Source: Chthonomonadaceae bacterium (GTDB lineage: Bacteria > Armatimonadota > Chthonomonadetes > Chthonomonadales > Chthonomonadaceae). Taken from it: DNA of 39,732 nt. The notes under the pieces are model-generated. The model was not told where the DNA came from, ran no database searches, and was given only the letters and a program-made list of their open reading frames with translations. This document shows, piece after piece, positions 13,049 through 18,958 of this stretch (the stretch's first letter is position 1; each line of letters starts with the position of its first letter). The stretch is from assembly GCA_027459665.1 (NCBI GenBank), contig DAIDHN010000036.1:1-39732 (forward strand), written 5' to 3'. A program made the translations under genes and the position numbers.

Positions 13049-13867
13049 ATGACAGAACTCAAGCTGGGCATTTCTCCATGCCCCAACGATGTGTTTATTT
13101 TCAGCGGAGTGCTGCTGCAGAAAGTAAGCACAGAAGATTTGCGTTTTCATGTAGAATTTCACGATGTAGAGTATCTCAATGAGGCCGTGCAGCATGGCAG
13201 CCTGGATGTGGCCAAGATTAGCGTGGCTGCTTACCCTGCCTGCCGGCAGGAATATATGCTGCTGCCCTGCGGCGGGGCGCTGGGGCGCGGGGTGGGGCCG
13301 CTTCTGCTTTCCAGAGGGAGCGACGCATGGCAGCCAGAACGCGAAACACTCTCGCCTGGCCGCTATACAACCGCCAATTTTTTGCTTGAGTTTTATCAGA
13401 ATCACACCCACCCCGGCCTTGCTTCATTGCCGCGCCGGTATCTTCCCTTTGATGAGCTGTACAGGGAACTGTGCTGCAACCCTGAGGCGCAGGGAGTGGT
13501 GATTCATGAAAAGCGTTTTACGTATCAGGCAGACGGCTTGCACTGCATTGCCGACCTGGGCGAATTTTGGGAGCAAAAAACCGGCTGCCCCATTCCGCTG
13601 GGGGCGCTGGCGGCAAAACGGCTGCCCAGCCTGGAGAAACCGCTTACCCGCATTGTGCAGAGCAGCATAGAGTGGGCGAGACAGCATTATGATGAAGCAT
13701 TTGCGCTCTGCAGAAGGTATGCACAAGATTTGAGTGCAGGGGTGGTAGAATCGCATATTGAGTTGTATGTAAACCAGTTTTCATACTTTCTGGGCAAAGA
13801 AGGGGAAGATGCGATTAGTTACTTTCTGAATATGCAAGAAATGTTTGCCCATGCGCCTGCCGGCTAG
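13049..13867 (+). CDS. mqnD: 1,4-dihydroxy-6-naphthoate synthase (MqnD)
   Basis: MqnD of the futalosine route to menaquinone, which converts cyclic dehypoxanthinyl futalosine to 1,4-dihydroxy-6-naphthoate. The 272-residue protein has a periplasmic-binding-protein type II fold and opens with the diagnostic LGISPCPNDVFIFSGVL. Other family features are DVEYLNEAVQHGSLDVAKIS and GRGVGPLLLSR. A strong AAGGAG ribosome site precedes the ATG. It is followed after 18 bases by larC, probably one transcript. No other mqn gene is in the window. Confidence 0.93.
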   Translation: MTELKLGISPCPNDVFIFSGVLLQKVSTEDLRFHVEFHDVEYLNEAVQHGSLDVAKISVAAYPACRQEYMLLPCGGALGRGVGPLLLSRGSDAWQPERETLSPGRYTTANFLLEFYQNHTHPGLASLPRRYLPFDELYRELCCNPEAQGVVIHEKRFTYQADGLHCIADLGEFWEQKTGCPIPLGALAAKRLPSLEKPLTRIVQSSIEWARQHYDEAFALCRRYAQDLSAGVVESHIELYVNQFSYFLGKEGEDAISYFLNMQEMFAHAPAG

Positions 13868-13885: not shown

Positions 13886-14620
13886 ATGCGTATTGCTTAC
13901 CTAGACTGTTTCAGCGGCATCAGCGGGGATATGCTGCTGGGAGCATTGCTTCATGCCGGAGTGGACGAAGCGCGCTGGCGCGAGGGGCTGCGCGGCCTTG
14001 GGCTGGAGGAGTTTGGCATTTCGGTGACACAGGTTTCCTGCAGCGGAATAGCAGGCGTGCAGGTGGATGTGATTGTAACCTCGCCGCAGGAAGGGCATGG
14101 ACGGCATTTGAGCGACATAGCGCGAATACTGCAGGCAAGCACGCTGCCCGCTTCTGTGCAGAGCCGCGCCCTGGCAGTGTTCACCCGTCTTGCAGAGGCG
14201 GAAGCCCGCATTCATTCTTCTACCCCCGAGGACATTCACTTTCATGAAGTTGGCGCTGTAGATGCTCTGGTAGACATAGCAGGCGCCTGCCTTGGGCTGG
14301 AGATGCTTGGGGTAGAACGTGTTTATGTTTCTCCGCTGCCCTACAGCAGGGGGTGGGTAAAATGCATGCATGGCTCCATTCCAACCCCTGCGCCGGCCAC
14401 GCTTGCTCTGCTGACAGGGTTTGCCTGGCGGCTGGATGCACGCCCAATGGAATTGGTGACCCCTACCGGAGCCGCGCTGGCGGCTGAGTGGGCTGAGCGC
14501 ACGCCGGAGGGAGATGCAGCGCCGCTGCCAGCCATAACGCTGCGGGCGGCAGGTTACGGGGCAGGGCAGCGAAAAACAGAGCGGCCCAATATGCTGCGGC
14601 TTTGCCTGGGTGATTTGTGA
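13886..14620 (+). CDS. LarC N-terminal-domain protein (nickel-pincer cofactor family), lacking the C-terminal domain
   Basis: LarC installs nickel in the pincer cofactor of lactate racemase and related enzymes. The start DCFSGISGDMLLGALLHAG, the middle DIHFHEVGAVDALVDIAG and the end ERPNMLRLCLGDL are the complete LarC1 part. Full LarC is about 400 residues; this one stops at 244. The 120 bases before the next gene cannot hold the LarC2 part in any frame, so frameshift fusion as in Lactiplantibacillus is not possible here. No larA, larB or larE is present in the window. It may be a domain-reduced form or a truncated gene. The ATG has a ribosome site (AAAAGGAG), and the gene shares a run with mqnD. 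Confidence 0.85.
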   Translation: MRIAYLDCFSGISGDMLLGALLHAGVDEARWREGLRGLGLEEFGISVTQVSCSGIAGVQVDVIVTSPQEGHGRHLSDIARILQASTLPASVQSRALAVFTRLAEAEARIHSSTPEDIHFHEVGAVDALVDIAGACLGLEMLGVERVYVSPLPYSRGWVKCMHGSIPTPAPATLALLTGFAWRLDARPMELVTPTGAALAAEWAERTPEGDAAPLPAITLRAAGYGAGQRKTERPNMLRLCLGDL

Positions 14621-15954: not shown

Positions 15955-16089
15955 GATTCGTCGGCTGTCTGAGGGAATAATGCATTGTTTTTATTTGGCT
16001 GGATTATTGCTGCATACTGAGCGGGTACCATACTGTAAACGATTTTTCTGCAGCACATTACCAGATGCCTTGCATCCCCGAAAGAACTG

Positions 16090-16815
16090 ATGACTGTATT
16101 CAAGCCGCCTGTTGTGGTGATTCCTACGTACAATGAACTGGAAAACATACCCCAACTCCTCCCTCGAATAGCTGCCAGCGTGCCTGGGGCGCATGTGGTG
16201 ATTGCAGACGACAACTCGCCAGACGGCACTGCAGATGCAGCGGAAGAGATTTGCAGGCGCTATGAAGGCTACAGGGTGTATCGGCGTACCGGAGAGCGGG
16301 GGCTTGGGCGGACATATACCGATGCGTTTCAGATGCTGCTGAGGGAAGGGTATGAGGTGCTTGTGCAGATGGATGCCGACCTTTCGCACAACCCAGACAG
16401 CCTGCCCGGCATGCTGAGAGCCATGAGTAACGCAGATGTGGTGATTGGCTCGCGGTACACGGCAGGGGGATGGGTGGAAAACTGGCCACGCCGGCGGGTG
16501 CTGCTGAGCAGGTATGCCAACCTGTATGTGCGTGCTGTAACCGGCCTGCCCGTGCGGGATGCAACGTCGGGCTTTCGCTGCTGGTCGGCCGCTGCACTGC
16601 AGCGTATGGACCTTGCAGCCATGCAGGCGCGCGGGTATGCGTTTCAGGTTCAGATGGCGTACCGTGCATACAGTGCGGGCATGCGCATTGTTGAGGTTCC
16701 CATTACATTTACCGACCGGGTGCATGGGGTGAGCAAACTTTCCGGTACTGTTTTTCTCGAATCTGTGTGGATGCCCTGGCACATTCGGTTTGGAAAAGAG
16801 AGAAGAGAACCATGA
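16090..16815 (+). CDS. Polyprenol-phosphate mannose synthase-like glycosyltransferase (GT2)
   Basis: Soluble GT2 glycosyltransferase of 241 residues, like bacterial Dpm1/Ppm1, which moves a sugar (usually mannose from GDP-mannose) to polyprenyl phosphate. Features in order: IPTYNELENIPQLL, IADDNSPDGT, RGLGRTYTDAF, the metal-binding MDADLSHNP, VIGSRYTAGG and VRDATSGFRCW, then VPITFTDRVHGVSKLS. There is no C-terminal membrane domain, as in the minimal Dpm1 form. The first ATG lacks a strong ribosome site. Flanked by two acyltransferase genes, it may supply lipid-linked sugar for surface glycans (inference). Confidence 0.9.
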   Translation: MTVFKPPVVVIPTYNELENIPQLLPRIAASVPGAHVVIADDNSPDGTADAAEEICRRYEGYRVYRRTGERGLGRTYTDAFQMLLREGYEVLVQMDADLSHNPDSLPGMLRAMSNADVVIGSRYTAGGWVENWPRRRVLLSRYANLYVRAVTGLPVRDATSGFRCWSAAALQRMDLAAMQARGYAFQVQMAYRAYSAGMRIVEVPITFTDRVHGVSKLSGTVFLESVWMPWHIRFGKERREP

Positions 16816-16847
16816 ATATTTTTGCAAAAACAGGCTGTTGGCTCAAG

Positions 16848-16885
16848 AATGCTATACTGACAATACAATGCTATACTGACAATAC
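16848..16885 (+). repeat. Perfect 19-bp tandem duplication
   Basis: The sequence AATGCTATACTGACAATAC occurs twice in a row (16848-16866 and 16867-16885), 24 bases before the start of the frameshifted acyltransferase gene. Each copy contains TATACT, a -10-like hexamer, so the duplication doubles a possible promoter element. No -35 box is obvious. Confidence 0.9.
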
Positions 16886-16908
16886 TAGGTGTATAAGAAA
16901 CTACAATA

Positions 16909-18103
16909 ATGCCTAAAGAAAATAAGATATTACCAAATAAATCTCCAGGTCACCTGCCTGGTTTGGATACTCTGCGTGGTATTGCCTGCCTTTCGGTTGT
17001 TTTTCTCCATGCTTTTCCGGCAAATCTTTCAGTGAGCATTTTTCACCCATCGCTTACCGTTCAATAACTTGAGTTTAGTGTGGCAGCACATTGGATACCA
17101 GGGTGTATCCATGTTTCTGGCTTTGTCTGGTTTCTGCCTGTACTATCCCATTGTCAGAAAAGGAGAAATGCATCAGAAGGTAGACATTGCCCGTTTTGCA
17201 AAGCGGCGAGCGAAAAGAATTTTACCACCATATTATTTAGCGCTAGTTGTTTTTATACTTTGGGATGCTCTCATTGCAAGTCGTCCAACTCACCATCCGA
17301 TTTCAACTATACCTGCTGCAATGCTTGGCCATATTACTGGCGAATGGCGTAACATTCTGGCACATATATTTATGTTGCATAATCTTTCTCCAAAATATAT
17401 TACTGCATTCGATGGTCCATTCTGGTCTCTTGCTCTTGAAAGTCAGCTTTACCTGATTTTTCCCCTGCTAGTCTACTGCTTTTCCCGACTTGGAGCAAAC
17501 AAAACCTGTCTGGCATCAGCTATGATTGCATTGACTTGGGAAACTGGCTGCCGCATTCATTATGGATTGCACCCCACTCCTTTTCATATACTTAGTGTTT
17601 ATTGGTATGCTCTACCAGCCCGATTTTTCGAGTTTACTGCAGGAATGTGGGCGGCTTTACAAGTTGCTCGTTATCACAATGAGAGCATCTCAACAGACTA
17701 TTGCGCCAAATGGCTGTTTTTACTGTTTCCTGTAGCTCTCGCAGTATGTATTCCTACAGAGAGAACATGCATACCCTTTCGTTTTGTGGCTTGGGGTGCA
17801 TTCTGTGCATGTGTGCTGGTTTTTGTAAATACAGCTAAATCCAGAAGGTTTTGGTCAAGCAGGTTAATGCTGCCTCTCACGAATCTGGGTATATTTTCCT
17901 ACAGTCTTTATCTAATTCATTTCCCTTTAGTAGGGTTTATAATAAGCCAGAAGTATAAACACCACATTCATAATGGGTTTATAAACCTGCTGGCAGTTTT
18001 GGTATCGATTCCGCTGGCCTATGTATTTTACATGTGTTTAGAGCGGCCATTTATGAATACAAAACCTGTTTTTGTGAAGCCAGATCAATTGCAACCAGGG
18101 TAA
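16909..18103 (+). pseudogene. Frameshifted acyltransferase 3 gene
   Basis: The first frame (16909-17067, 52 codons) gives the signature LPGLDTLRGIACLSVVFLHAF and then stops. The next frame carries the rest to 18103 (GVSMFLALSGFCLYYP, KRRAKRILPPYYLALVVF, YSLYLIHFPL). Both frames overlap between 17036 and 17064. A run of five T at 17039-17043 is the likely site: with four T the reading becomes SIFTHRLPFNN and continues uninterrupted. The joined protein would be about 397 residues, normal for the family. The gene is clearly AT-richer than its neighbours, suggesting acquisition by transfer. It may be inactive, rescued by slippage, or a sequencing error. Confidence 0.85.
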
Positions 18104-18124
18104 ATTGCGGTTCTCACCGATCGG

Positions 18125-18958
18125 TTATGCGCTTTGGTTCTGGGCGGCAGATGCTTCTGGCTGGTTTTCCAGCCGGGTGAGCCAGTATTGCACGTCAAAG
18201 CGGTCGTCTGCGGTGAGGAAGCGCCAGAGGCGAATGCGGTTGCATACCTCCAGCCTGTCGTCTTCGCCGTACCAGCCATGGTTGCGCGCCAGTATGCGTT
18301 CTACCTGCGGGTCATGCAGATCGCTGGTATCCCAAAGCAGCATCTGGCGAACTGTGGGGTTGATGCGAATTTTGATCATATAGCGCATGGTGTCGGTGAG
18401 GTTGGGCTGTGCGCAGTGCCAGAGGTCGTGGTGCCCTGCCAGCACAGTTCCCGCCTTGCATACCACCGGTGTTTGCCCCAGAAAGTTTTGCGGGCGCGAC
18501 ACGTCAAATTCATGCACGCGGCGCAGGTGGCTGCCTGGCAGAAACAGCGTACCGCCCATTTCACGCGGGGTGTCATGTGGAAAGTAGAAAAGCTGTATAT
18601 CGAAATGAATGCGCGTATCAATGATTGCGTCCACATGCCACAGCTGCCCTTCTTCATGTTTGGGCGGTACGCGGTGTGCGGCATGGTGATCGTAGAGAGG
18701 TTTCGGGCCAACCAGGCTCTGAATAATTCCCTCAACCTGCGGCAGGCGAAGCATGGCGCCTATCCCCTTTGAATCTGGCCACAATGTGTGCAGCAAAGCC
18801 CCTGCAGGGGCAGCATGCCCCTGAATCTGGCCGGCATCCAGCTCGCGCATTACCTCCCGGTTGATCTCTTCAGGAACCAGTTCATCAAAACGCAGCAGGC
18901 CGTCTGCGGCAAAGTTTGCCATTTGCACCGTGCTGAGCAATGGAATATCGGCGGGCAT
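18125..18958 (-). CDS. Phytanoyl-CoA dioxygenase family protein
   Basis: Fe(II)/2-oxoglutarate-dependent oxygenase-like protein of 277 residues (PhyH family). The iron facial triad is readable: His and Asp in LWHVDAIID (HxD, about residue 108) and the distal His in GHHDLWHCAQPNLT. The 2-oxoglutarate Arg is in MRYMIKIRIN. PhyH proteins hydroxylate varied small molecules; the substrate is not predictable. ATG 18958 is chosen because GGAGGA lies nine bases upstream. The upstream partner gene ends only one base earlier, so the two form an operon. Convergent with the frameshifted acyltransferase. Confidence 0.9.
   Translation of the reverse strand: MPADIPLLSTVQMANFAADGLLRFDELVPEEINREVMRELDAGQIQGHAAPAGALLHTLWPDSKGIGAMLRLPQVEGIIQSLVGPKPLYDHHAAHRVPPKHEEGQLWHVDAIIDTRIHFDIQLFYFPHDTPREMGGTLFLPGSHLRRVHEFDVSRPQNFLGQTPVVCKAGTVLAGHHDLWHCAQPNLTDTMRYMIKIRINPTVRQMLLWDTSDLHDPQVERILARNHGWYGEDDRLEVCNRIRLWRFLTADDRFDVQYWLTRLENQPEASAAQNQSA

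Follow-up and report, generated by a model that had tools for sequence, protein, structure and literature searches.

An AT-rich AT3 acyltransferase gene of a Chthonomonadaceae bacterium, split by one base and probably a recent pseudogene

Results

The acyltransferase gene lies in two frames

The window analyzed here is a stretch of 39,732 nucleotides (contig DAIDHN010000036.1 of assembly GCA_027459665.1, a Chthonomonadaceae bacterium). It holds an Acyl_transf_3 (AT3, PF01757) gene of about 390 codons with an AT3-only architecture, which is split between two forward frames and preceded by a short tandem duplication. The features are as follows.

16848..16866, forward strand: first copy of a 19-bp unit, perfect tandem duplication
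16867..16885, forward strand: second copy of the unit, also perfect; the two copies are the only exact ones in the genome
16909..17067, forward strand: ORF1, N-terminal AT3 piece of 52 aa, carrying the TMH1 sequence LRGIACLSVVFLH, whose Arg and His are ten residues apart
17036..18103, forward strand: ORF2 frame, the remaining AT3 domain, 355 stop-free codons
17036..17064, forward strand: overlap of 29 nt in which both frames are open; holds the frame break
17039..17043, forward strand: T5 run, the sole run of at least five within the overlap; the gene has eight T5 runs in all
17069-18103, forward strand: ORF2 as listed, 344 aa, with TTG at 17069 as first listed start

An earlier note on this DNA had placed the N-terminal signature of the family in one frame and the rest in the next, and PF01757 matches in both frames confirmed this. 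Residues 17-40 of ORF1 matched profile positions 2-25 (E 9e-5, on its own below the Pfam curated cut-off), while the listed ORF2 matched positions 43-325 (E 4e-22). When the ORF2 frame was read from 17036, the match started at 17042 with profile position 27 and ran to 325, above the Pfam cut-off, and nothing was missing between the domain halves in ORF1 and the ORF2 frame. The gene thus lacks the one-frame continuity expected of an AT3 gene: its two frames are offset by one base, and because they are open together only over 17036-17064, the break must fall within these 29 nt.

A single one-base event suffices to explain the split. The T5 run is indeed present at 17039-17043, and the earlier suggestion that reading it as T4 restores the protein holds as far as the size of the change is concerned. 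However, that the event struck the T run rather than another place in the overlap is a guess, because a one-base change anywhere in the 29 nt would look identical. Runs of five or more occur in 200 of the 1,166 stretches of 29 nt in the AT3 gene.

The codon of the TMH1 histidine is separated from a G-x-x-G-V motif by 82 nt (27 codons plus one base), and the same loop spans 18 to 33 residues in the homologues (16 of 23 rows readable, 15 of them distinct). Since the scores of the HMM built from these 23 rows were inflated, the Pfam matches were used as the basis of our analysis. Indeed, one row (L184) comes from the ORF2 of the window itself, as a piece of 113 aa, L201 duplicates L196, L183 duplicates part of L185, and L186, L187, L189 and L190 are anchored at C-terminal parts alone.

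The remainder of the ORF2 frame shows no visible decay. It contains no stop codon, compared to a mean of 16.7 in 2,000 Markov simulations, none of which gave zero, and the other two frames across the same region contain 21 and 9 stops. Unbroken homologues, a single break and an otherwise open frame, as expected of a pseudogene that arose by a recent indel, were all found.

Upstream of these features, the window holds a gene at 13049-13864 that we take to be MqnA-like, followed at 13886-14620 by the LarC1 part of LarC (profile positions 1-234). The rest of LarC (positions 227-375) is found at C44:28707-29225; the two parts are on separate contigs and are therefore not joined by a frameshift here.

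The residues of TMH1 are in ORF1

ORF1 harbors, as LRGIACLSVVFLH, the TMH1 arginine and histidine with ten residues between them, a motif named R-X10-H. In this spacing, in the domain itself, in an L-S-G-F after the first loop and in its length of about 390 codons, the gene is similar to other AT3-only PF01757 enzymes; unlike them, it is split over two frames, and its identity to the homologues found is about 40% at most. A sequence comparison of ORF2 with solved structures gave no match at E 0.001.

The excerpted report on Salmonella OafA gives less than 1% of remaining signal for both R14A and H25A (PMC7448272), and the arginines conserved in TMH1 and 3 are described as essential in standalone AT3 enzymes too, in the part of the text cited here (PMC9833829). 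Because the TMH1 arginine and histidine sit in ORF1, a product made from ORF2 only should be inactive. The intact gene product would presumably O-acylate a surface or exported glycan.

The gene is AT-rich, and the relatives found are distant

The earlier description of the gene as AT-rich against its neighbors was borne out. Its GC content is 0.418 compared to a sample mean of 0.535 (standard deviation, 0.038), and 8 of 2,638 overlapping windows were as low in GC, the AT3 gene's own included. Similarly, GC3 is 0.31 in ORF1 and 0.36 in ORF2, compared to 0.57-0.65 in five neighboring genes. Low GC is not confined to the broken copy, the other eleven AT3 stretches that we measured ranging from 0.395 to 0.567.

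Among 291 genomes of the phylum, the closest match was 40% identical (38% within the family), and no nearer ortholog was found. An ortholog search by sequence pattern in a collection of genome contigs gave 15 pattern matches, none of which was a relative by tblastn, and the matches from a plasmid search (8 records) and a phage search (1 record) were all below 60% identity. A second scan of the contig collection, with the MqnA-like neighbor at 13049-13864, gave ten Bacteroidota loci at 36-42% identity. As the gene is AT-rich and its best match in the phylum is 40% identical, lateral acquisition is likely.

AT3 genes are numerous and seldom broken

PF01757 gave 14 rows in the genome, namely, eight full-length open genes, four pieces whose coordinates place them at contig ends (C52, C59, C65 and C85) and the two rows of the split gene. 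Since eight other AT3 genes are full length and open, the genome may tolerate losing one. In the 17 family genomes, PF01757 matches numbered 110, and six rows contain stops: the split gene and five rows in one draft, G007. Two more AT3 genes of the family lie in two frames by coordinates (G013:C417 and G007:C548). Broken AT3 genes are thus present in the family yet uncommon.

As a separate observation, the AT3 N termini at the end of C65 and the start of C59 (L062 and L063) are 86% identical over 364 bp, and both run into the 77 bp that open C52 (L064). Probably, an AT3 gene was recently duplicated or converted here and the assembler collapsed the copies.

A tandem duplication precedes the gene

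The perfect 19-bp tandem duplication carrying TATACT, which the earlier note had reported in front of the gene, is present at 16848-16885 and scores highest among the 23 tandem-repeat rows of the window. Promoter-like matches on both strands of 16000-18600 numbered 3, compared to a shuffle mean of 3.1, and are thus not in excess. The unit recurs with 3 mismatches at C5:64043-64061 and C26:8743-8761, with TATACT retained in both, and these near-copies may be promoter-like; the reversed pattern was not found.

The duplication also lies within a short frame (16812-16916), whose ATG overlaps the stop codon of the preceding glycosyltransferase gene and follows a purine-rich stretch. This frame runs through the duplication and stops at 16914-16916, across the start of ORF1, so that the duplication alters the short frame and not that of the enzyme. 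Possibly, the short frame is what remains of a gene, or it serves as a coupling leader. We considered a gene lost after the glycosyltransferase, but inspection by eye of the downstream side of 14 related loci showed nothing that resembles the 16812 frame. Presumably, it is serC-like starts that follow in seven of these loci and an rpmH/rnpA-like one in one.

An 836-kb sample of the genome contained nine perfect tandem arrays whose units measure 12-60 bp. Five of them are inside stop-free frames of at least 256 codons, one is at and another near a contig start, and two (window 16848 and C65 17472) lie a short distance in front of AT3 genes, a count that is biased because AT3 loci were deliberately sampled and one of the arrays is the finding itself. 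The array on C65 (L062, 17472-17507) consists of two perfect copies of 18 bp upstream of an AT3 match at 17611. Tandem duplications beside AT3 genes are unexplained and only a lead.

The assembly makes an error less likely

The split could be a sequencing or assembly error, the organism itself having an intact gene. Errors look like this, with one base changed next to a homopolymer and the remaining frame undamaged, and the genome is a draft of 118 contigs. Furthermore, no 16S rRNA gene was found in it by a search that was positive in 9 of 14 control genomes, and it may for this reason represent a metagenome bin.

However, the contig ends point to a type of data in which such an error would be rare. 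Among the 35 ends examined (32 starts and 3 ends), nine share at least 31 bp with another place, and five of these nine share exactly 77 bp, at three distinct junctions: one joining the end of L062 with the starts of L063 and L064, one at the end of L066 and one at the start of L101. The other four share 101, 73, 51 and at least 31 bp. Exact overlaps of 77 bp are what remains after de Bruijn assembly at k = 77, which suggests short reads. Indel errors in T5 runs are rare in short reads, and an error of this kind is therefore less likely.

Additionally, a survey of split frames in which 385 of 1,303 ORFs of the relative G002 were matched in 836 kb of the genome revealed a single split, although with limited sensitivity. 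The survey compared 1.6 of 3.44 Mb of G002 with 836,302 of 3,670,980 bases of the genome, a nonrandom sample in which AT3 loci were picked on purpose. A single match covered at least 90% of the query in 221 of the 385 cases. The survey may miss short end pieces and paralogues, and the split gene of the window, which was the best place of no query, escaped it, so that the result is a rough lower bound only. The one split that it detected is at the start of contig C1 (L069, 3-1228), in a gene that we take to be Rhs-like. The eight full-length AT3 genes, finally, are unbroken. Taking these data together, we consider an error unlikely.

Recoding and phase variation find little support

Another reading is that the gene is still expressed across the break, by low-level +1 slippage on UUU-C or by reinitiation at the TTG at 17069, giving an active or a two-piece enzyme. 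The layout of the junction would allow for it: the ORF1 stop codon (17065-17067) and this TTG are one base apart, and the ORF1 frame reads the T run as ATT TTT CAC, so that a +1 slip would move UUU to UUC. Nevertheless, we regard this reading as quite improbable. No stimulatory RNA structure was detected in 17036-17135 (z-score of 0.57; 139 of 200 shuffles folded at least as well), and the 291 genomes, with their best match at 40%, yielded no ortholog in which a frame break is conserved. The 16 of 23 homologue rows that are readable at the junction all cross it in one frame. As to printed evidence that a codon of this kind slips, the excerpted source offers only the title of a 1994 reference on E. 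coli argI (PMC5009743).

Phase variation, the first of the three readings offered by the earlier note, would have slipped-strand changes at the T run, at the 19-bp repeat or at both toggle the enzyme on and off. This is a reasonable idea, because phase variation of AT3 genes is known elsewhere. According to the part of the text used here, the AT3 gene oafA of Haemophilus influenzae is phase variable, its copy in the Rd genome has a frameshift, and the title of the work referenced for it names tetranucleotide repeats; in Salmonella, the acetylation of rhamnose is switched epigenetically, signature sequences being present upstream of oafB (PMC9558356). The gene described here is similar to H. 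influenzae oafA in being an AT3 gene sequenced with a frameshift, and perfect tandem duplications are found upstream of two AT3 genes of the genome. However, in contrast to the tetranucleotide repeats of oafA, the T5 run is the sole repeat at the break: repeats of at least seven bases and multicopy units are absent from the overlap at 17036-17064. Runs of this kind are short and common (eight T5 runs in the gene and 2,792 runs of exactly five in the 836-kb sample), and the minimum for poly-A/T near a frameshift was 7 nt in the excerpted frame-transition survey (PMC3711429). Furthermore, the 19-bp repeat has two copies only and sits upstream of the ORF1 start, which leaves the enzyme frame unaffected, and promoter-like matches are at shuffle level. 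In those parts of the open-access literature that were covered, no such phase-variable AT3 gene is described for this lineage. No positive evidence for phase variation was found, and it appears very improbable.

It is more improbable still that the AT3 family of this lineage is diversified by small reversible lesions, with upstream duplications tuning expression and one-base breaks bypassed by reinitiation or +1 slippage, such that the split AT3 (a TMH1 peptide and the remaining helices) would be made at a low level.

Discussion

Among the readings of the earlier note, that of a fresh pseudogene is best supported. Overall, we propose that a standalone, AT-rich AT3 acyltransferase gene, probably acquired laterally, was inactivated by a recent one-base change shortly after TMH1, a reading that we regard as probable. 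The change would shift the frame, and ribosomes would halt at 17065-17067 after 52 residues. Products started inside ORF2 would be made without the Arg and His of TMH1, on which AT3 enzymes depend. That the remaining frame is still open would be due to how recent the event was, although its lack of decay also counts against this reading, as do the limits of the split-frame survey and the unexplained tandem duplications in front of two AT3 genes.

In the excerpted text of the GeneTack survey, domain-confirmed singleton frame transitions are attributed to indel mutation or sequencing error (PMC3711429). The split gene is similar to those singletons, being likewise a domain-confirmed one-base transition without conserved relatives (PMC3711429). 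As a probable recent pseudogene, the split AT3 gene is one more frameshifted accessory gene for surface modification, and as such ordinary. If both frames occurred in a population, this lineage would join those known to switch the acylation of their glycans.
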